The position numbers and the translations under genes are program-made. A DNA stretch of 47,395 bases from Candidatus Agathobaculum merdavium (GTDB taxonomy: Bacteria > Bacillota > Clostridia > Oscillospirales > Butyricicoccaceae), in assembly GCA_019115615.1 (NCBI GenBank), contig DXDE01000118.1:1-47395 (forward strand), in the 5' to 3' direction. Shown here in pieces: positions 36,443-47,395 of the stretch; within the stretch, counting starts at the first letter, position 1, and every line of letters begins with the position of its first letter. The notes beneath the pieces are model-generated. The model ran no database searches. It worked only from the letters and a program-made list of their open reading frames with translations, and had not been told where the DNA came from.

Positions 36443-37015
36443 TCACTGCGGCATGCCGCCATGAATAATATCCTCGGCTACGATGCGTTTGGTGCAGCGG
36501 CGCTGCATTGCCTGCTGCTCAATATAGGCGTGTGCATCCGGCTCGGTCATGCCGCAGCATTCGATCAGCAGGCACTTGGCGCGGTCAACCAGACGGATGT
36601 CTTCAATACGCTGCTGCAACCGATGGTTTTCCTTGCGAAGACCGGTCAGCCGTGCACGTGCGGCGCGCGTCATGCGCAGCGCCTGCAGAAACAGGGTGCG
36701 GGACAGCGGTTTCGGAATGACGAACACACCGTCGTCCTCGACTTTGGCAGAGACTTCGTCAGCAATTTCCGCTTTGGTCAGCAGGATCACGCCGGCAGCC
36801 GTTTCACAGGCGGCCTGCGCCAGCTCGTGGCCAAATTCATCAGGCAGAGGGGAATTGATCAGGATCAGGTCAAAATCCCCATCGACCAGTATACGCCGCG
36901 CCTGCGCACCCGAGGCGGCGGGCACGGTCTGCGCCTGTACGCCGCAGGAGGCGAGGAACTGCGCGAGCATATCCTGCGACTTGGACGTAGCGGTGACAAT
37001 CAGCATGCGTTCCAA
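36443..37015 (-). CDS. ANTAR-domain antiterminator with degenerate receiver domain (NitR-like)
   Basis: C-terminal IEDIRLVDRAKCLLIECCGMTEPDAHAYIEQQAMQRRCTKRIVAEDII matches ANTAR; N-terminal REC-like fold without DD pair or acceptor Asp. Confidence 0.9.
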   Translation of the reverse strand: MERMLIVTATSKSQDMLAQFLASCGVQAQTVPAASGAQARRILVDGDFDLILINSPLPDEFGHELAQAACETAAGVILLTKAEIADEVSAKVEDDGVFVIPKPLSRTLFLQALRMTRAARARLTGLRKENHRLQQRIEDIRLVDRAKCLLIECCGMTEPDAHAYIEQQAMQRRCTKRIVAEDIIHGGMPQ

Positions 37016-37056
37016 ACGGCGTTGCCCTCCTTTCGGGTAAGAGTGGGGGCGGGGGA

Positions 37057-38376
37057 TCAGTAGCGCTCAAAGTAGAGTGCGCGTTCTGCCTCATAGCGGT
37101 CATCCGCCTGCGCGATGCGGTCATGCTCTGCCTGCTTGACCTCGAAAAATGCTTCGCGCATCTTTCGGGGCAGGCAGCTGGCAATGAAAGTGCTGTCCTG
37201 TGCGCAGCGGATCGCCTCACACAGCGTACCGGGCAACGCGTCATACTGCGCGCGCACATCGTCGGGGGCAGTGAACAGGTTGTTGTCGCAGGCAGGCGCG
37301 AGTGGCAGCCGGTGGCGGACACCGTCCAACCCCGCCTCAATCAGCAGGGCAAAGACCAGATAGGGATTGATGCACCCATCAAACGAGCGCACTTTCATAC
37401 GGTTGGCAAGTTTGCCGTTTGCCAGTGGGACGACAATCAGTGGCCCTCGATTGCGGTGCGACCATGTGATGTGCCGCGGCGCTTCAAACTCGCCCAGACG
37501 CTGGAACGAGTTGGTCAGCGGGTTGCCGAACACGGTCATTTCTGCGGCGTGCTGCAGAATGCCCGCGACAAAGCTGCGGCCATCCGCACTCTGTTCAAAG
37601 TCTGGGTGGAATAGGTTTTGTCCGTTTCGCGTGATGGAGATGGACAGATGCAGGCCGCTGCCGGGGATGCTGGGCAAGGGCTTGGGAAGGAAGGAGGCGT
37701 ACAGTCCGCTGGATGCAGCCATGGATTTAACAACCCATTTGAATGTGATAAAGTTGTCCGCGGCTTCGAGTGCTTCAGCATAGCGGAAGTCGATTTCGTG
37801 CTGGCCGGGGCCTTGTTCGTGATGCGAGGACTCCGGCTGAATGTTCATTTCCTCGAGGGTCAGGCAGATCTGGCGGCGCACGTTTTCCGCCTTGTCGAGC
37901 GGTGCAACGTCAAAATATTCGCCGTGGTCATGCGGGATGACGGTGGGGCAGCCTTTTTCGTCCTGCTCGAACAGGTAAAATTCGCTGGCGGTGCCAAAGG
38001 TGATCGCATAACCAGACTGCCGTGCACGGCGGACAGCCTCGCGCAGCAGATAGCGGCCGTCACCTTCAAAGGGTGTGCCATCCGGATAACGGATATCACA
38101 ATAGAAGCGCACGACACGGCCCTGCGACGGACGCCACGGCAATACAGATAGTGTTGCCGGGTCGGGGAACAGCAGCAGGTCGGAATCGTCGACATTCAAA
38201 AAGCCGCGCAGCGAGGAAGCATTGAAGTGGATGCCGTGTTCAAAGGCGCGCGTAAGCTCAGTCGGCATGATGGCGATGTTTTTCTGGTTGCCGAAGATAT
38301 CGCAAAAGGCCAGACGGATGAACTTAACGTCGTTTTCCTCAATAAATTGCAGCACTTCGTGCATAGTGGTGTCCAT
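37057..38376 (-). CDS. Type I glutamine synthetase-like protein (possible pseudoenzyme)
   Basis: SHHEQGPGQHEIDFRYAEAL, MPKPL-like FLPKPLPSIPGSGLH, VRSFDGCINPYL; two n2-metal Glu ligands substituted. Confidence 0.88.
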   Translation of the reverse strand: MDTTMHEVLQFIEENDVKFIRLAFCDIFGNQKNIAIMPTELTRAFEHGIHFNASSLRGFLNVDDSDLLLFPDPATLSVLPWRPSQGRVVRFYCDIRYPDGTPFEGDGRYLLREAVRRARQSGYAITFGTASEFYLFEQDEKGCPTVIPHDHGEYFDVAPLDKAENVRRQICLTLEEMNIQPESSHHEQGPGQHEIDFRYAEALEAADNFITFKWVVKSMAASSGLYASFLPKPLPSIPGSGLHLSISITRNGQNLFHPDFEQSADGRSFVAGILQHAAEMTVFGNPLTNSFQRLGEFEAPRHITWSHRNRGPLIVVPLANGKLANRMKVRSFDGCINPYLVFALLIEAGLDGVRHRLPLAPACDNNLFTAPDDVRAQYDALPGTLCEAIRCAQDSTFIASCLPRKMREAFFEVKQAEHDRIAQADDRYEAERALYFERY

Positions 38377-38429
38377 AAGAGCCGCGCTCCTCTCTAAATA
38401 AATATGATATGCGCCGCGCAACGCAAAAA

Positions 38430-39158
38430 TCAGGATTCATAGGTATAAAGCTGATGGTAACCGGCTTCGGGGTTTGGCGTAAGGACAAAATACTGTTGCG
38501 CAAGCAGCGCGGCCGCGTCACCGCCGAAGTAACGGCAGTAATCTTCCACATAGGGAGCGATGCCGTCGAGGTCGGTCCGATCTGCCGGGCTGACCAGTAC
38601 CTGTCGGGGCAGACCTGCCGGCGCCTGATCACATCTTAACACAATTTTGCCGCCGTGCATACCCGTGCCGCAGAAATTGCCAGCGGGGTAAGCGCCATTC
38701 TGTCCGCGGCCGAGCACGAGAATTAGGCCACCGGCCTGATATTCGCCGAGGAACGAGCCTGCTTTGCCGCCGATCACGATAGCAGGGAAGTGCTGCTCAT
38801 AAGCCTTCATATGAATGCCGCCGCGGTAGCCGCAGTCACCTTCGATGAAGATGCGTCCGCCGCGCATGCCGTAGCCGCAGGCGTCGCCAACATTGCCGTG
38901 AACAATGATATCGCCTTGGTTCATGGTGTCGCCGACGGCTTCCTGTGCGTTGCCGAATACTTCGATGGTCGATCCGCAGAGGTACTGGCCAAGGCCGTTG
39001 CCGGGCGTGCCGTGGATAGTGATGGTGCGGTTCGCAGAGCCGCAGCCGAGATAGCGCTGGCCGATCACGTTTTCGACCGTGATTTCGCTGTCGTCAATCG
39101 CGCGGATCTGCTCATTGAGCTGCTGATAATAGGTGAGGTTTACCTGTACAGTCGTCAT
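38430..39158 (-). CDS. Split glutamate synthase, GXGXG (GltB C-terminal) domain subunit
   Basis: GNGLGQYLCGSTIEVFGNAQEAVGDTMNQGDIIVHGNVGDACGYGMRGGRIFIEG beta-helix repeats. Confidence 0.9.
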   Translation of the reverse strand: MTTVQVNLTYYQQLNEQIRAIDDSEITVENVIGQRYLGCGSANRTITIHGTPGNGLGQYLCGSTIEVFGNAQEAVGDTMNQGDIIVHGNVGDACGYGMRGGRIFIEGDCGYRGGIHMKAYEQHFPAIVIGGKAGSFLGEYQAGGLILVLGRGQNGAYPAGNFCGTGMHGGKIVLRCDQAPAGLPRQVLVSPADRTDLDGIAPYVEDYCRYFGGDAAALLAQQYFVLTPNPEAGYHQLYTYES

Positions 39159-40396
39159 CAGTGTGCGCCTCCTAACTGTTTTGCGCGCTCAGCGCGGGAG
39201 AATGCCATCAGCTGCGGCTTTTCGCGGATGAGGTCAAAGTCGATCGTGTCAAGCGGGGTTCGCTCACGGATGAGCGAGGTGTAGATGCCCGCGCGGTCGA
39301 CATCGCCAATCAGAATAAAGCCGACCAGATGGTTGTCGCGCGTGACCAGCAGCTTGTAGTTTTCGCCGTCCTGTTCGAGATATTGTTCTCCATCGTACGA
39401 ACCGGCAGTGATCATGTGCAGCCCCAGAAAACCAGAAGCGTTCATGGGGATTGCTTTGTCGAAGGATGCTTTGCCGCCGGCCATGTTGCGGCCCGCAGTC
39501 TCGCCCTGCAGGTAGGCGTTGGGTAGGATGGCGAGGATGCGGTCGGTGTCAGCGGAAATATCGTGCGATACCGTGCAGTCGCCCGCCGCATAAATATCCG
39601 GCACGGTGGTGGCGGAGCAGTTGTTAATCAGAATACCGCGGTTTACTTCGCAGCCCGCGTCAGCGGCGAGTTCGGTATTCGGCCGTACGCCGACTGCTAC
39701 GACCAGTACGTCAAAGCCGAGTGTGGCGCCGCTTTGCAGGGTAGCGGTATTGCCATCGAAGCGGGCGACGCTGTCGCCGAGGATGAAACGCACGCCTTTG
39801 CCTTCAAGGTGCCGCTGGATAATGGCGGCAGGTACTTCGGTCAGTACATTGGGCAGGATACGCGGTGCAAGGTCAATGACGGTCAGTTCTTTCGCGCGGT
39901 GGCAGATGCCTTCGGCACATTTCAGGCCAATCAGACCTGCGCCGACGATAAGTACACGTTTGTCGCTTGTTTCACCCAGCATATTGTTCAGCCGCTTGGC
40001 ATCGTCCAGCGTCATAAAACTGGTCTTGTTCTGCACGGTGTCCAGCCCTTCCATCGGCGGCACGAACGGCCGTGAGCCGGTGCAGATACAAAGTTTATCA
40101 TAGGGAACGGTTTCGCCGCCCTCGAGCAGTACGTTTTTTGCCGCATGGTCGATTTTGGTTACTGTGCGTCCCAGCATGGTTTTGACACCGTTTTTCTCAT
40201 AAAAGTCGGCCGGACGGTAATGCAGCATCTTGTCCTCGGTCGTTTTGCCCAGCAGCAGATAGGAAATCAGCGGCCGGCCATACACGGGATAGATTTCGTC
40301 TGAAATGACGGTGATTGCGCCATCGCGGTCGACCGCGCGGATACCTTCGATTGTGCCGACAGCTGCCGTGCCGTTGCCGATAATCACGTAATTCAT
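39158..40396 (-). CDS. NAD(P)/FAD-dependent oxidoreductase (split glutamate synthase electron-donor subunit)
   Basis: MNYVIIGNGTAAVGTIEGIRAVD, VLIVGAGLIGLKCAEGI, IYAAGDCT motifs. Confidence 0.9.
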   Translation of the reverse strand: MNYVIIGNGTAAVGTIEGIRAVDRDGAITVISDEIYPVYGRPLISYLLLGKTTEDKMLHYRPADFYEKNGVKTMLGRTVTKIDHAAKNVLLEGGETVPYDKLCICTGSRPFVPPMEGLDTVQNKTSFMTLDDAKRLNNMLGETSDKRVLIVGAGLIGLKCAEGICHRAKELTVIDLAPRILPNVLTEVPAAIIQRHLEGKGVRFILGDSVARFDGNTATLQSGATLGFDVLVVAVGVRPNTELAADAGCEVNRGILINNCSATTVPDIYAAGDCTVSHDISADTDRILAILPNAYLQGETAGRNMAGGKASFDKAIPMNASGFLGLHMITAGSYDGEQYLEQDGENYKLLVTRDNHLVGFILIGDVDRAGIYTSLIRERTPLDTIDFDLIREKPQLMAFSRAERAKQLGGAH

Positions 40397-40401
40397 GCGT
40401 T

Positions 40402-40830
40402 TCACCTCTCCTCGTACACAATGGCCTTGTTCGGACAGCCCTGTACGCACATGGGCTGGCCAAACGCATTCTTGGCGCACAGCTCGCATTTCTGGATTGC
40501 GCCCTCGTTCGAGGTGGACAGCGCACCGTACGGGCAGGACAGGATGCAGGTATAGCAGCCGACGCACTTGTCCGAGTCGATCTGTACCGCGCCATCCACG
40601 ATGGACAGCGCGCCCGAAATGCAGCCCTTGACGCACAGCGGGTCGGTGCAGTGACGGCAGTTGACCGCAAAGGAAATATTGTCGCGCTCCTCGATGCGGA
40701 TACGCGGCGCGATCTTATGATCTTTCAGTGCCTTGACCATCGAGGACTTGCCCGAGTTGGCAAAGGCGCAGTAATATTCGCACAAATGGCAGCCGAGGCA
40801 CCATTTTTCGTTGACGTAGATTCGTTTCAT
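40402..40830 (-). CDS. 4Fe-4S ferredoxin-type iron-sulfur protein
   Basis: CLGCHLCEYYC, CRHCTDPLCVKGC, CVGCYTCILSC, CELC...CVQGC clusters. Confidence 0.92.
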   Translation of the reverse strand: MKRIYVNEKWCLGCHLCEYYCAFANSGKSSMVKALKDHKIAPRIRIEERDNISFAVNCRHCTDPLCVKGCISGALSIVDGAVQIDSDKCVGCYTCILSCPYGALSTSNEGAIQKCELCAKNAFGQPMCVQGCPNKAIVYEER

Positions 40831-40845
40831 GCCTGTGTTGCCTCC

Positions 40846-42351
40846 TTATTCGCCCGCATGCTTGATGCCGAGAATGTTCAGTTCCCGGTCGGTCAGGCCG
40901 ATGCCGCGCAGCATCAGACGGTTGCCGCGCAGCGCCTCGATCGAGTTGATGCCCATGCCGCCCATCATTTCCTTGAGCTCGTGATCCCATGCGGTGACCA
41001 GATTGACCAGTCGCTGCGAGCCGATATCCGGGTTCAGGCGCTTGACCAGCTCAGGGCGCTGGGTCGCAATGCCCCAGTTGCATTTGCCGGTCTGGCAGGA
41101 GCGGCACAGGTGGCAGCCGAGTGCGAGCAGGGCAGAGGTAGCGATGTAGCATGCGTCCGCGCCGAGCGCGATGGCCTTCAAGAGATCAGCCGAGTTTCGG
41201 ATCGAGCCACCGACGACCACGGATACCTGATCGCGGATGCCTTCGTCGCGTAGGCGCTGATCGACCGCTGCGAGCGCCAGCTCAATCGGGATACCGACAT
41301 TGTCACGGATGCGGGTCGGCGCTGCGCCCGTGCCGCCGCGGTAGCCGTCGATGCAGATGACGTCCGCACCCGAACGGGCAACGCCGGATGCGATCGCTGC
41401 GACGTTATGTACTGCCGCAATCTTGACCATGACCGGCTTTTTGTATTCGGTTGCCTCTTTCAGCGAGAATACCAGCTGCCGCAGATCTTCGATCGAGTAA
41501 ATGTCATGGTGCGGGGCAGGGGAGATGGCGTCCGTGCCTTCCGGGATCATGCGGGTTTTGGAGATGTCCGGGCCGACCTTGTGGCCGGGCAGGTGGCCGC
41601 CAATACCGGGCTTTGCGCCCTGACCCATCTTGATCTCGATGGCTGCGCCTGCTTCTAGATAGTCCTTATGCACACCGAAGCGGCCGGACGCGACCTGCAC
41701 GATGGTGTGTGGGCCGTACTGATAGAAGTCCTGGTGCAGGCCGCCTTCACCGGTATTGTAATAAGTGCCCAGTTCGACAGCGGCGCGTGCGAGCGATGCG
41801 TGCGCGTTATAGGAGATTGAACCGTAGCTCATGGCAGAGAACATGACCGGAACTTTCAGTTCGAGCTGCGGGGATAGATTGGGAATCAGGTTGCCGTTTT
41901 CGTCGCGCTCGATCTTGCCCGGCTTTTTGCCGAGGAAGGTGCGTGTCTCCATCGGTTCGCGCAGTGGATCGATCGAGGGGTTGGTGACCTGCGAGGCGTT
42001 GATGAGGATCTTGTCCCAGTAGATCGGATATGGCTCCGGGTTGCCCATCGAGGACAGCAGCACGCCGCCCGAGCCTGCCTGCCGGTAGACCTCGGAAATG
42101 GCCTTGCCCGTCCAGTTGGCGTTTTCCTTAAAGGTATGGTCGGTCTTGACGATCTTCAGGGCGCGCGTCGGGCAGAGCGAGACGCAGCGGTGACAGTTGA
42201 CGCACTTGGATTCATCCACCATCATCTTCTGGAATTCCGGGTCATAAAAATGTACTTCATTGGCGCACTGTCGCTCGCAGGCGCGGCAGGCGATGCAGCG
42301 GTCGTAATTGCGCACGACCTCATACTGCGGATACAGAAAATCAATCGCCAT
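40846..42351 (-). CDS. Split glutamate synthase, FMN-binding domain subunit with N-terminal 4Fe-4S domain
   Basis: CIACRACERQC, CVNCHRCVSLCP; FSAMSYGSISYNAHASLARAA, GGTGAAPTRIRDNVGIP, CHLCRSCQTGKCNWGIATQ. Confidence 0.93.
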   Translation of the reverse strand: MAIDFLYPQYEVVRNYDRCIACRACERQCANEVHFYDPEFQKMMVDESKCVNCHRCVSLCPTRALKIVKTDHTFKENANWTGKAISEVYRQAGSGGVLLSSMGNPEPYPIYWDKILINASQVTNPSIDPLREPMETRTFLGKKPGKIERDENGNLIPNLSPQLELKVPVMFSAMSYGSISYNAHASLARAAVELGTYYNTGEGGLHQDFYQYGPHTIVQVASGRFGVHKDYLEAGAAIEIKMGQGAKPGIGGHLPGHKVGPDISKTRMIPEGTDAISPAPHHDIYSIEDLRQLVFSLKEATEYKKPVMVKIAAVHNVAAIASGVARSGADVICIDGYRGGTGAAPTRIRDNVGIPIELALAAVDQRLRDEGIRDQVSVVVGGSIRNSADLLKAIALGADACYIATSALLALGCHLCRSCQTGKCNWGIATQRPELVKRLNPDIGSQRLVNLVTAWDHELKEMMGGMGINSIEALRGNRLMLRGIGLTDRELNILGIKHAGE

Positions 42352-43448
42352 TACTGGTTTCCTCCTTCATTCAGTCGTACGATGACCGGCTCGCCGCCGC
42401 GCGGCGCCCAGATGCGGTCGAGTGCAGGCTCGATCACGCGCACCGCACATTCTTCGGATGCGATATAGACCGTCTCGTCTTTTTCACCGACGACCATACT
42501 GCGCAATTTCAAGCGGTCATTGAGAGCCATCAGCCCACCTTCAAACCCGACAAGAATGGAGAATGGGCCGGTGAAAAGCAGGGAAGCGAAGGCGTTGCGC
42601 AGATAGGTCAGGCGCTCACGTTCGGCGGATTCCTGCTTTTCAATGGTCGACCAGAACGGTGCGGCAATGACGTTTGCAATTTCGGGGTAGGTCAGCCCCA
42701 GCTTTCGACCGAGATAGTCGACGATGTAGGTGATGACCTCGGTGTCAGTCAGCAAATCGCACGAATAGCCGAACATTTCAATAAAGCGGCGGTTTGCATC
42801 ATAAGAGGAAATTTCGCCATTATGTACCACCGTGGTGTCCAGCAGCGCAAACGGATGTGCGCCGCCCCACCAACCGGGGGTGTTGGTAGGATAGCGGCCA
42901 TGGCAGGTCCACGAGTAGGCCTCATAGTTTTCCAGCATATAGTACTCGCCAACGTCCTCCGGGAAACCGGAAGCCTTAAACACGCCCATGTTCTTGCCGG
43001 AAGAAAAAATGTAAGCACCGTCCAACGTGTGGTTGATGCGGATAACAAAGCGGGCGACGAACTCGCGCTCGTCGAGCTGGCTGGAGGTGAGCTTGACGTG
43101 TAGCGGGGTGACGAAATACCGCCAGATCATCGGCTCGTCAGTGATGCGGGGATGGCAGCGTGTCGGGATCTTAGAGAGGTTTACAATATCGAAATGCCGC
43201 TCAAGCTCCTTTTCACATTCCTCTTTTGCAGCCGGCGTATCATAAAATACATGGAATGCGTAGTAGTCTGCGTATTCCGGATAAATGCCGTATCCGGCGA
43301 AGCCGCCGCCTAAACCATTGGAACGGTCGTGCATGGTGCGGATCGAATCGATGATGCGCGTGCCGTTTTCCCGCGTGCCGTCCTTATGGAAGATGCCGGA
43401 GATCGCGCACCCGGCTGGGATGCGGATTTTGCCTTCCTTTTGTAACAT
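42351..43448 (-). CDS. Split glutamate synthase, class II glutamine amidotransferase subunit
   Basis: AGCAISGIF nucleophile motif, GRYPTNTPGWWGGAHPFALLDTTVVHNGEISSYD. Confidence 0.9.
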   Translation of the reverse strand: MLQKEGKIRIPAGCAISGIFHKDGTRENGTRIIDSIRTMHDRSNGLGGGFAGYGIYPEYADYYAFHVFYDTPAAKEECEKELERHFDIVNLSKIPTRCHPRITDEPMIWRYFVTPLHVKLTSSQLDEREFVARFVIRINHTLDGAYIFSSGKNMGVFKASGFPEDVGEYYMLENYEAYSWTCHGRYPTNTPGWWGGAHPFALLDTTVVHNGEISSYDANRRFIEMFGYSCDLLTDTEVITYIVDYLGRKLGLTYPEIANVIAAPFWSTIEKQESAERERLTYLRNAFASLLFTGPFSILVGFEGGLMALNDRLKLRSMVVGEKDETVYIASEECAVRVIEPALDRIWAPRGGEPVIVRLNEGGNQ

Positions 43449-43589
43449 GGTGCTTCCTCCTTATAGATACATATTTATATGCAATGCAGAGTGGTATCCG
43501 CGGTGGGTGACCCGACCGCCGGACGCCGGCGCGTCTTTCCGATGAAAACGCGCCGGCTAGGAAAGAAATAGGATTGGGTGGTATCAAAA

Positions 43590-43649
43590 AAAGGCGTCCA
43601 CCAAAGCCGGGGACCGTTTTTTCGATCCTCGGTTTTGGTGGACGCCTTT
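43590..43649 (-). terminator. Leader intrinsic terminator of split glutamate synthase operon
   Basis: Minus strand AAAGGCGTCCACCAAA...TTTGGTGGACGCCTTT (16-bp perfect outer stem) followed by T run. Confidence 0.9.
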
Positions 43650-43653
43650 GTCC
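43640..43653 (-). promoter_or_regulatory. Candidate ANTAR-type antiterminator hairpin GGAC-AAAGGC-GTCC
   Basis: Hexaloop with A1/G4; loop and 3' arm form the 5' arm of the terminator. Confidence 0.6.
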
Positions 43654-43661
43654 TTTCTCCT

Positions 43662-43691
43662 ATTCTATTACGGCTAGGGCAGCAGCGTCAA
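43662..43691 (-). promoter_or_regulatory. Promoter TTGACG-N18-TAGAAT of split glutamate synthase operon
   Basis: -35 at 43691-43686, -10 at 43667-43662 (minus). Confidence 0.6.
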
Positions 43692-43813
43692 GCGGTAAAC
43701 CGCTGGCAAAACAGATTTTTTACAGTCTGCATAGAATGAGACGCGGAAATTTGGAGGAAATTCGATATTTTGCATCAAATCTTTGAAAATCGCAAAAAGA
43801 ACGTCACCAGACC

Positions 43814-43842
43814 TTGACAAAAATGACGAGGGTAGCTATAAT
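43814..43842 (+). promoter_or_regulatory. Perfect consensus promoter TTGACA-N17-TATAAT of glnN
   Basis: Hexamers at 43814-43819 and 43837-43842. Confidence 0.85.
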
Positions 43843-43853
43843 GCAAAGTGTTA

Positions 43854-43869
43854 ACAGCAAAGGCGCTGT
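43854..43869 (+). promoter_or_regulatory. Candidate ANTAR-type antiterminator hairpin ACAGC-AAAGGC-GCTGT
   Basis: 5-bp stem with hexaloop A1/G4, overlaps leader terminator 5' arm. Confidence 0.62.
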
Positions 43870-43903
43870 GGGAACACGACCCGCAGCGCCTGTTTTGTTT
43901 TAT
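43861..43903 (+). terminator. Leader intrinsic terminator of glnN
   Basis: AGGCGCTGTGGG-AACACGA-CCCGCAGCGCCT followed by GTTTTGTTTTATT. Confidence 0.85.
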
Positions 43904-43948
43904 TCCATTCGTTGGGTAACAAAATTCACATAAAAGGAGCGAACATTC

Positions 43949-46036
43949 ATGATGACAGCAAAGAATGTCCCCGAGCTGTTCGGCAGCATGGTCTTTAATG
44001 AGACCGTCATGAAGGAGCGTCTGCCCAAGGACGTTTACCGGAAGCTGAAAAAGACCATGCGGGAAGGCACGGCAATCGACGCCGACGTTGCCGCTGTTGT
44101 GGCGACCGCCATGAAGGACTGGGCGGTTTCCAAGGGCGCGACGCACTACACCCACTGGTTCCAGCCGATGACCGGCGTAACGGCGGAAAAGCATGACTCC
44201 TTCATTTCTCCGACCGATGACGGCAGCGTAATGATGGAGTTCTCCGGCAAGGAACTGATCCGCGGCGAGCCTGATGCGTCCTCGTTCCCGTCCGGCGGCC
44301 TGCGCGCGACCTTTGAGGCGCGTGGCTACACCGCTTGGGACCCGACCAGCTACGCGTTCGTCAAGGACGGTTCGCTCTATATCCCGACGGCGTTCTGCTC
44401 TTATACGGGCGAGATCCTCGACAAGAAGACCCCGCTGCTGCGCTCGATGGAGGCAATCAGCGTGCAGGCCTGCCGCGTGCTCAAGCTGTTCGGCAAGGAT
44501 GTGCGCCATGTAACGACTACCGTCGGTCCGGAGCAGGAGTATTTCCTGATCGAGAAGAAGGATTACGCCAAGCGCAAGGATCTGATCTTCACCGGCCGCA
44601 CCCTGTTTGGCGCGAAGCCGCCCAAGGGGCAGGAGATGGAGGATCACTATTTCGGTTCGATCCGTCCGCGTGTTGCGGCGTTCATGCAGGAGCTGGACGA
44701 AGAGCTGTGGAAGCTCGGCATCTTCGCCAAGACCAAGCATAACGAGGTTGCGCCTGCGCAGCACGAGATGGCGCCGGTGTTCACCACAACGAACATTGCG
44801 TGTGACCATAACCAGCTGACCATGGAGGTCATGAAGCGCGTGGCGCAGAAGCACGGCTTTATCTGCCTGATGCACGAAAAGCCGTTTGACGGTGTCAACG
44901 GCTCCGGTAAGCACAACAACTGGTCGATTTCTACCGACGAGGGTGAGAACCTGCTTGAGCCCGGCAAGACGCCGAGCGAGAACGCGCAGTTCCTCCTGTT
45001 CCTGACTGCAGTCATCAAGGCGGTCGACGAATACCAGGATCTGCTGCGTATTTCGGTTGCTTCTGCGGGCAATGATCATCGTCTGGGTGCAAACGAAGCG
45101 CCTCCGGCGATCGTCTCCATGTTCATTGGTGACGAACTGCAGGGCATCCTCGACGCGATCGAGTCCGGTGCGGATTACACCGATATGGCCAAGACCAAGA
45201 TGGATCTGGGCGTGTCTGCGCTGCCGGATATCCCGAAGGATACGACCGACCGCAACCGTACTTCGCCCTTTGCCTTTACCGGCAACAAGTTCGAGTTCCG
45301 CATGCTGGGCTCGGCGATCAACATTGCTTGCCCGAATATTATGATTAACACTGCGGTAGCCGAGGAGTTGCGCCTGTTTGCCGACGAGCTGGAGGGCGCG
45401 GAGGACTTCGAGAGTGCATTGCTGACGCTGATCAAGCGCGAGATCAAGGCGCACAAGCGTATCATCTTCAATGGCAACGGCTATGATGATGCGTGGGTGG
45501 CGGAAGCTGAGGCGCGCGGTCTGCACAACCTCAAGTCTACGGTGGATGCGCTGCCGCACTACACGGATGAGGCGAATGTCGAGCTGTTTGCCCGCCATGG
45601 CGTTTACACCCGCGTCGAGATGGAATCCCGCTTGGAAGCGCTGCTCGAGGAATACTATAAGACCCTGCACATCGAAGCGCTGACCATGAGCGACATGGTA
45701 CGCGAGGAAATTCTGCCGGCTTGTGTGCAGTACCAGAGCGATCTGGCTAAGACCATCTGCGATAAGAAGACGGCCGGTGTGTCCGGCGGTATGGAGGCCG
45801 ACCTGCTGGGCCGCGTATCCGCGCTGACCGAGGAACTGTATCAGCAGTGCCGTGCGCTGGATGATGCAGTAGCGGGCGCACCTGCGGCCGAGGCCAAGGC
45901 GGTTGCGCACTACTATCATGACACGATCCTGCCGCTGATGGATGCGGTTCGCGCACCTGCGGATCAGCTGGAAATGCTGGTGGGTAAGAAGTACTGGCCG
46001 CTGCCGACCTACTCCGACATCCTGTTCTACGTATAA
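43949..46036 (+). CDS. glnN: Glutamine synthetase type III
   Basis: 695 aa; [61 protein letters not shown]. Confidence 0.95.
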
Positions 46037-46059
46037 AGAACGTATTATAATCATCATTG

Positions 46060-46075
46060 TACACAATGGCGTGTA
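46060..46075 (+). promoter_or_regulatory. Candidate ANTAR-type antiterminator hairpin TACAC-AATGGC-GTGTA
   Basis: 5-bp stem with hexaloop A1/G4, overlaps terminator 5' arm upstream of amtB. Confidence 0.6.
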
Positions 46076-46125
46076 TTGCCTGTCAGCCCGAAAGGGCGGC
46101 AGGGGATACACGCCATTTTTATTTT
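46065..46125 (+). terminator. Intrinsic terminator between glnN and amtB (candidate amtB leader terminator)
   Basis: AATGGCGTGTAT...CCTGTCAGCCC-GAAA-GGGCGGCAGG...ATACACGCCATTTTTATTTT. Confidence 0.88.
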
Positions 46126-46142: not shown

Positions 46143-47395
46143 ATGGACATCAATGTATTGGCATCTGCAATGGACGTTGGCTGGACGCTGATCGCTGCGG
46201 CGCTTGTATTCTTCATGCAGGCGGGCTTCGCGATGGTCGAAACCGGCTTTACCCGGGCGAAAAACGCGGGCAACATCATCATGAAGAATCTGATGGACTT
46301 CAGTCTTGGCACACCGATCTTCTGGATCGTCGGCTTCGGCATCATGTTCGGTTCGATGAATGGCTTTTTTGGCGGTTTTGACTTTTTGGCCGATGGTGTC
46401 GTTGGGGAAGGGTATGACTGGACGACGCTGATCTTCCAGACAGTGTTTTGTGCAACGGCTGCGACTATCGTGTCTGGCTCGATGGCAGAGCGCACCAAGT
46501 TCTCGGCTTACTGCATTTATTCCATGATCATTTCGGCCGTAGTTTATCCGATTTCCGGCCACTGGATCTGGGGCGGTGGCTGGCTCAGTGAGCTGGGCTT
46601 CCACGATTTTGCCGGTTCGACCGCGGTGCACATGGTTGGCGGTGTGGCGGCGTTCATTGGCGCAGCAATCCTTGGACCCCGTATCGGCAAGTACACCAAG
46701 GACGGTAAAGCACGCGCGATCCCTGGCCACTCGCTGACGCTGGGCGCGCTCGGCGTGTTCATCCTGTGGTTCTGCTGGTTCGGCTTCAACGGCGGCTCGA
46801 CGGTCGCATTGTCCGGCGGTATGGATGAAGTTGCGGCACGCGTATTTGTCACGACCAATATGGCGGCGGCAGTTGCGACGGTTACCGTTATGTGCATCAC
46901 CTGGATTCGCTATAAGAAGCCGGATGTGTCTATGACGCTTAACGGTTCGCTCGCTGGTCTGGTTGCAATTACGGCTGGCTGCGATACGGTAACGCCTTTT
47001 GGCGCGGCTGTCATTGGTATTATCGCGGGCTTCGTCGTAGTATTCGGTATTGAATTTGTTGACCAGAAGCTCAAGGTCGATGACCCGGTCGGCGCGGTTG
47101 GTGTACATGGCCTGTGCGGTGCGACCGGCACACTGATGGTCGGCCTGTTCGGATACTATGCTTATGGCAGCACGGAGGTTGCGCCGGTCGGCCTGTTCTA
47201 CGGCGGTGGCGTGCATGCGTTGGCGGTTCAGGCGCTGGGTATGGTTGCGGTCATTGCATGGGTAGCGGTCACGATGACGATTGTATTCCAGATCATCAAG
47301 CACACCATCGGCCTGCGCGTCTCGGAGGCGGAAGAACTCATGGGTCTCGACAAACCGGAGCATGGCCTGTCCTCGGCTTATGCGGATTTCATGCC
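46143..47395 (+). CDS. amtB: Ammonium transporter (3' end outside window)
   Basis: FFMQAGFAMVETGFTRAKNAGNIIMKNLMDFSLGTPIFWIVGFG, HMVGGVAAFIGA, WFGFNGGS; ORF open at window end. Confidence 0.95.
   Translation, partial: MDINVLASAMDVGWTLIAAALVFFMQAGFAMVETGFTRAKNAGNIIMKNLMDFSLGTPIFWIVGFGIMFGSMNGFFGGFDFLADGVVGEGYDWTTLIFQTVFCATAATIVSGSMAERTKFSAYCIYSMIISAVVYPISGHWIWGGGWLSELGFHDFAGSTAVHMVGGVAAFIGAAILGPRIGKYTKDGKARAIPGHSLTLGALGVFILWFCWFGFNGGSTVALSGGMDEVAARVFVTTNMAAAVATVTVMCITWIRYKKPDVSMTLNGSLAGLVAITAGCDTVTPFGAAVIGIIAGFVVVFGIEFVDQKLKVDDPVGAVGVHGLCGATGTLMVGLFGYYAYGSTEVAPVGLFYGGGVHALAVQALGMVAVIAWVAVTMTIVFQIIKHTIGLRVSEAEELMGLDKPEHGLSSAYADFM

Follow-up and report, generated by a model that had tools for sequence, protein, structure and literature searches.

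A candidate ANTAR antitermination regulon with a single hexaloop hairpin at three nitrogen-assimilation units of Candidatus Agathobaculum merdavium, and a degenerate glutamine synthetase homologue as its likely gate

We analysed a 47,395-nucleotide (nt) stretch of DNA from Candidatus Agathobaculum merdavium (contig DXDE01000118.1 of assembly GCA_019115615.1; hereafter the window), in which nitrogen-assimilation genes are preceded by putative targets of an ANTAR-domain antiterminator. Seven closely packed genes on the minus strand make up one operon. The first encodes a class II glutamine amidotransferase subunit (42351-43448; PF00310, GATase class II) and is followed by four more pieces of a split glutamate synthase: the core with its Glu_synthase domain (40846-42351; PF01645, E 4.5e-141), a 4Fe-4S ferredoxin subunit (40402-40830; PF13247), a pyridine-nucleotide-disulphide oxidoreductase subunit (39158-40408; PF07992) and a GXGXG-domain subunit (38430-39158; PF01493). 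The last two genes encode a glutamine synthetase (GS)-like protein (37057-38421; Gln-synt_C, E 1.5e-94), which we propose as a sensor or gate, and a NitR-like ANTAR protein (36443-37015; PF03861, E 1.6e-15), the putative antiterminator. Divergent from this glt operon, on the plus strand, lies glnN, encoding a type III glutamine synthetase (GSIII; 43949-46036; PF12437, E 1.4e-81). Downstream of glnN, also on the plus strand, is the ammonium transporter gene amtB (46143-47393; PF00909, E 7.6e-127), which continues past the end of the window. These domain matches bear out the genes and coordinates given in a first-pass annotation made from the sequence alone (7-gene operon, divergent glnN, then amtB).

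Each of the three leaders contains a hexaloop hairpin, the proposed ANTAR site and antiterminator, and an intrinsic terminator predicted by folding. On the minus strand ahead of the glt operon, a promoter pattern match spanning 43643-43691 gave TTGACG-N18-TAGAAT at 43662-43691; the hairpin GGAC[AAAGGC]GTCC lies at 43640-43653 (model match E 5.8e-5 in a whole-genome search) and the terminator at 43584-43649. The glnN leader (plus strand) has a promoter pattern match, TTGACA-N17-TATAAT, at 43814-43842, the hairpin ACAGC[AAAGGC]GCTGT at 43854-43869 (model match E 7.6e-7) and a terminator at 43859-43901. Ahead of amtB (plus strand), pattern matching located GTACAC[AATGGC]GTGTAT at 46059-46076, with a terminator at 46065-46125. 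In 3/3 leaders the terminator 5' arm begins with the hexaloop and the 3' arm of the hairpin, so that the two folds are mutually exclusive. The minimum energies of the leaders were -43.4 (glt), -27.8 (glnN) and -41.7 kcal/mol (amtB). Shuffled leaders averaged -13 to -17 kcal/mol, and the hexaloop hairpin folded by itself gave -4.8 to -6.5 kcal/mol. As the terminator fold is far stronger by these computed energies, termination would be the default. The exclusion of one fold by the other had been proposed in the first-pass annotation and agrees with both the shared segment and the folding energies; the stem length of 4-5 bp proposed there is right for glt and glnN but not for amtB, whose stem is slightly longer (6 pairs, the outermost G-U). 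The loose pattern RWWGGCG was uninformative, with 83 matches in the window vs 84 expected.

For comparison, orthologous loci were taken from 60 genomes belonging to its genus, family and order (1.08 Mb together with the window), and a search of genome collections added 80 relatives (Agathobaculum, Butyricicoccus, Ruminococcus, Clostridium, Romboutsia, Anaerotruncus, Defluviitalea and spirochaetes). The ANTAR protein carries its ANTAR domain at the C-terminus, after a long coiled coil (PF03861, 57.1 bits against a cut-off of 27.3). The N-terminal domain matched Response_reg below cut-off, and the phospho-acceptor Asp of an EutV-type two-component ANTAR regulator is replaced by Asn in the window protein and in 58 of 61 orthologues. 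In structure comparisons the AlphaFold model (predicted local distance difference test, pLDDT, 94.7) came closest, among full-length solved structures, to Rv1626, the EutV-RNA complex 6ww6 (template modelling, TM, score 0.79) and AmiR. The protein has a pseudo-receiver and, by this model, an EutV/AmiR-like fold. Two of its residues, Glu158 and Met170, align with E160 and M172 of EutV, which contact the hexaloop, and neither varies among 22 orthologues; the position of EutV Tyr164 is occupied by His162, as in AmiR. No other ANTAR protein exceeded the family cut-off in the organism's own genome (a draft, about 86% complete). Among the relatives, two tandem ANTAR domains were seen in a single chain of ~250 residues (G025:C71, loci L155 and L159; also G268 and G284).

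The GS-like protein is a clear GS homologue. When catalytic and metal sites were placed by motif, in Salmonella GS numbering (D50, E129, E131, E212, E220, N264, H269, R344, E357), it was found to carry D50N, E129A, N264P, R344V and E357K, and so departs from the type I GS residue set at 5 of 9 sites. The same five-site loss occurs in all Agathobaculum orthologues of the window type; the exception within the genus, in genome G022 (L086), belongs to a locus of another type. This genome combines a distant-type ANTAR/GS-like/glt/glnN locus (G022:C26; ANTAR about 40% identical) with, on a second contig, a glnN leader of the Agathobaculum type, reflecting either horizontal transfer or contamination. 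The only GS homologues in the genome of the window are the GS-like protein and glnN, and the latter is presumably the working GS of this organism. In a quick tree, ANTAR-linked GS proteins formed one clade apart from canonical GlnA (99% support in the Shimodaira-Hasegawa-like approximate likelihood ratio test, SH-aLRT). N264 and the position of Bacillus R62 have been lost across nearly the entire clade, and on the tree the core must have switched between intact and broken no fewer than 9 times, a Ruminococcus-type loss of E129, E212 and H269 being among these changes. GS-like and ANTAR genes were adjacent in nearly all loci compared, also where the glt genes lie elsewhere (L059, L062, L189, L195, L212). 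Since the pairing was kept despite loss of the core and displacement of glt, the pattern is the one expected of a protein kept as a partner, not as an enzyme. The pair was also found outside Clostridia, in Treponema and other spirochaete assemblies (L212, L213, L214, L220).

The alternative that survives best accepts that the ANTAR protein acts on the leaders but takes its neighbour to be an enzyme or former enzyme, for example a gamma-glutamyl ligase, with the signal arriving by some other path, for instance PII, glutamine itself or a non-cognate kinase. Most clade members outside the window genus keep E129, E131, E212, E220, H269 and E357, so that, judged by these metal-binding residues, many of them might still be enzymes, and the shared operon could mean that adjacency reflects shared expression alone. 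Against this, adjacency persists at the loci with glt genes elsewhere, the core changed repeatedly while the ANTAR linkage stayed, and one Clostridiaceae genome (L225) has a separate intact GlnA adjoining the GS-like/ANTAR pair; the pseudo-receiver argues against the kinase route. We therefore regard an enzyme as a possible but unlikely role, and prefer that of a partner of the ANTAR protein. The word pseudoenzyme, used in the first-pass annotation, suits the window genus and the Ruminococcus-type lineages by their residue losses, but not the many clade members with metal-binding residues.

Of the strict hexaloop-terminator overlaps in the 1.08 Mb, 92 lie upstream of glnN, amtB, the leading glt gene or an operon that opens with the GS-like gene; 0 lie inside the glt, glnN, amtB and GS-like genes, and 7 elsewhere, at least 3 of which resemble the same element ahead of an undetected or distant start. 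A looser count, made per gene, placed the element in 32/36 glt and 34/39 glnN leaders and in 21/25 amtB entries, among which the amtB of one genome appears twice. Many of the 80 added relatives carry the same elements, including one Spirochaetales glt leader (L220). We thus had 127 distinct gltS/glnN/amtB leaders with the overlap, from Clostridia and one spirochaete, with the loops AAAGGC (74), AATGGC (21), AAAGGT (15), AACGGC (9), AAGGGC (7) and AATGGG (1). The three window leaders (AANGGC) and all 127 (AANGGY, with one AATGGG) therefore share a short-stemmed hexaloop that has A1 and G4. In an alignment of 75 promoter-proximal leaders, the stem was paired in 95.5% of cells, stem pairs 1-4 having been partly a selection criterion; double-sided changes occupied 118 cells vs 40 in shuffles, and slid controls fell to 24-52% paired. 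When leaders were anchored on promoter and loop, with pairing not required, at least 4 pairs were still found in 47/49 glt and 45/54 glnN leaders. Stem sequences vary between gene classes while pairing is kept. These results confirm that the hexaloop-terminator overlap in glt, glnN and amtB leaders is more than chance; orthologous leaders retain the A1/G4 loop (as AANGGC) and its overlap with the terminator, on which the first-pass proposal depended, and their stems covary.

The same palindromes could serve a conventional repressor or activator as operators in the DNA, with the terminators incidental, as they lie some 6-25 bp past the conserved -10 boxes, a common place for repressor operators. 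However, the conserved AANGGC core is asymmetric and lies in the loop, and the stems differ by gene class yet keep their pairing. Every counted element overlaps a terminator, including one in the glnN-amtB spacer that has no conserved promoter, and the element keeps company with a family of RNA-binding proteins. We rejected the operator explanation as very unlikely, chiefly on the asymmetric conserved core and the covarying stems, and retained that of an RNA element.

Good -35/-10 promoters were found in 40/43 glnN and 40/41 glt leaders (80/84 together), against 3/127 in shuffled controls. Between the -10 box and the stem, every promoter-bearing glnN leader has 10-12 nt, and the promoter-bearing glt leaders have 6-10 nt with one exception. 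Transcription usually starts ~6-8 nt past the -10 box, so the RNA is expected to begin at the hairpin or a few bases ahead of it. Most amtB leaders have no conserved promoter; being mostly promoterless and placed between glnN and amtB, the amtB element is best read as a probable internal attenuator of a glnN-amtB transcript. A second A1/G4 hairpin (P1), sought in the 60 nt upstream, was present in 0/127 leaders and no more often than in shuffles, and so the classical pair of P1 and P2 joined by a linker was found in none of them. The first-pass annotation had seen one hexaloop per leader, and this holds for the window and for all 127. The comparison supports the single hexaloop as a property of the whole element class, which would be imposed by a position at the 5' end of the transcript that leaves P1 no room. 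That the elements are of the dual-hexaloop kind described in published ANTAR target searches (PMC3369931, PMC8164766), P1 having been missed through an upstream start or degeneracy, is highly improbable given the good TTGACA-TATAAT boxes, their nearly fixed spacing to the hairpin and the empty upstream 60 nt.

Two distant glnN leaders (L085, 2978-3128; L086, 12858-13024) contain the complete hexaloop-terminator module twice, in tandem at a distance of 63-74 nt, and in one Agathobaculum genome (L289, G014:C202) the promoter-hairpin-terminator module is duplicated in tandem upstream of glnN. All three are repeats of the single module and not a P1/P2 pair.

The presence of the element followed that of the ANTAR protein, as the first-pass annotation would predict. 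It preceded glnN in 34/39 leaders of genomes with ANTAR vs 0/16 in family genomes without ANTAR; G061, with a glnN 74% identical to that of the window, is one of these 16. Across 243 clostridial genomes, with kinship ignored, ANTAR was present in 37/44 genomes with CAGC-AAAGGY-GCTG vs 93/199 without it (p 4e-6), and in 61/75 vs 69/168 when any AANGGY loop was accepted (p 3e-9); the motif-only test (CAGCAANGGYGCTG) was noisy outside AAAGGY and was hence counted both ways. Constitutive terminators, or terminators governed by another leader-binding factor or riboswitch with the hexaloop as a by-product, have next to no likelihood in our view: attenuators do answer to many triggers, and ANTAR binding is here a prediction, but an Rfam search of the window gave zero matches in the nitrogen region (its sole match was a T-box elsewhere), A1 and G4, required for ANTAR recognition, are among the loop residues that do not vary, and the element co-occurs with ANTAR.

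To define the regulon, the organism's own genome was scanned with patterns and with a covariance model of promoter plus hairpin. In 2.24 Mb this model matched the glnN and glt leaders, at the E-values given above, and lower matches looked like noise. In two Agathobaculum genomes of sister species it also matched ahead of a pyridoxal phosphate (PLP)-dependent aminotransferase gene (L278, L282), a probable extra member of the regulon on this evidence. A related element with the loop AAAGGA or AACGGA lies ahead of an Lrp/AsnC-type regulator in three Agathobaculum genomes (L279, L281, L288). Both proteins were named from their sequence appearance, and are plausible nitrogen or amino-acid genes.

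We put at roughly 0.7 the probability that the ANTAR antiterminator attenuates three nitrogen-assimilation units through one hexaloop at each, with the GS-like protein as its likely gate. The sequences themselves show the leader anatomy with its single hexaloop and 5'-end placement, the conservation and covariation, the co-occurrence, the loss of catalytic and phosphorylation residues and the conserved pairing of the two genes; RNA binding, antitermination, induction by nitrogen limitation, contact between the two proteins, the ligand and the direction of control are inferred by analogy with EutV, AmiR/AmiC, NasS/NasT, NitR and Bacillus GS-TnrA. At glt and glnN, RNA polymerase would start a few bases ahead of the AANGGC hairpin, and at amtB it would read through from glnN into the spacer. 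By default the terminator would capture the loop and 3' arm, and transcription would end. Under nitrogen limitation, free active ANTAR protein, probably a dimer, would hold the hairpin and so deprive the terminator of the foot of its 5' arm, allowing transcription of glt, glnN and amtB. When nitrogen is plentiful, the GS-like protein may, with glutamine or some other ligand of GS bound, hold the ANTAR protein; as the pseudo-receiver has no phospho-Asp, the signal probably comes by protein contact from this co-transcribed partner. Timely capture of a lone hairpin could be helped by its 5'-end placement, by abundant ANTAR protein from the same operon, or by a dimer that spans the two divergent transcripts, glt and glnN.

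Several points weigh against this mechanism. Antitermination of eutP by EutV needed P1, P2 and their spacing (PMC3369931), and a lone P2 should thus be kinetically harder to catch. Some ANTAR-positive loci have no recognisable element (e.g. L181, L206, L235), and 7 genomes have the CAGC-AAAGGY-GCTG motif but no detected ANTAR protein. The co-occurrence tests are uncorrected for phylogeny, the start sites were placed by promoter consensus, and the stems had been partly preselected for pairing; the metal-binding residues kept by many GS-like proteins count here as well. With less confidence than for the window itself, we lean towards a broader statement, that a single 5'-end hexaloop ANTAR class is widespread in Clostridia and at least one spirochaete, and that it is gated by a GS homologue turned sensor in several lineages independently.

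Parts of this arrangement have precedents. In AmiC-AmiR, a receiver-like ANTAR protein is held by a co-transcribed ligand-binding partner. In Bacillus subtilis, glutamine-bound, feedback-inhibited GS holds TnrA, and GS also acts on GlnR. The proposed use of a GS protein as a nitrogen sensor holding a regulator would be alike, except that the Bacillus system employs an active GS and DNA-binding regulators, whereas here a degenerate GS would act on an RNA-binding antiterminator. The GS neighbouring NitR is reportedly the working GlnA, while here the neighbour falls in a degenerate GS clade of its own and the RNA element can be defined, as one hexaloop at the 5' end. As in NitR of Clostridium saccharobutylicum, which induces GS and glutamate synthase (GOGAT) genes by antitermination under nitrogen limitation (PMC6316151, citing Stutz et al. 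2007), the ANTAR gene adjoins a GS gene and GS/GOGAT genes are the targets. NasS-NasT likewise has an ANTAR protein held by a ligand-binding partner (PMC3795266). The GS-like protein may gate its receiver-like ANTAR protein as the co-transcribed partners do in AmiC-AmiR and NasS-NasT, but it descends from glutamine synthetase; dual hairpins, moreover, are present in the amiE leader (PMC3369936). EutV of Enterococcus faecalis shares the protein fold, the A1/G4 hexaloop, an antiterminator overlapping the terminator 5' arm and a regulon of several leaders (PMC3369931, PMC8934654), and differs in requiring phosphorylation and both P1 and P2 where we find a pseudo-receiver and one hairpin. In Desulfotomaculum, ANTAR elements lie ahead of glutamate synthase and other nitrogen genes (PMC3369931), again a nitrogen-assimilation regulon of several transcription units, but found by a dual-hairpin model that would exclude the single-hexaloop class.

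Clostridial nitrogen control by ANTAR antitermination is therefore already known in outline (PMC6316151 for NitR, PMC3369931 for regulons), and has also been suggested for C. thermocellum (PMC4676874). What is new is a defined class of single-hexaloop 5'-end elements and a degenerate GS clade fixed beside ANTAR; a literature search that covered few subscription papers returned no description of either. Published target searches demanded two hairpins (PMC3369931, PMC8164766), and so excluded this class by design. In the EutV-RNA structure a single hexaloop is touched, and the 2022 paper describing it considered one hexaloop the minimal site and called for genomic examples (PMC8934654). With some 130 leaders that offer nothing but a single hexaloop, the sufficiency of one hexaloop can be tested directly. 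Should the GS-like protein prove to be a sensor, it would clearly exemplify, in bacteria, how an enzyme of central metabolism repeatedly lost catalysis and was kept as the signalling partner of an RNA-binding antiterminator, and it would explain nitrogen sensing in many gut Clostridia.

Apart from the nitrogen region, the window contains the T-box leader mentioned above, at 2108-2350 on the plus strand (124.8 bits), with its own TTGACA-type promoter directly upstream.

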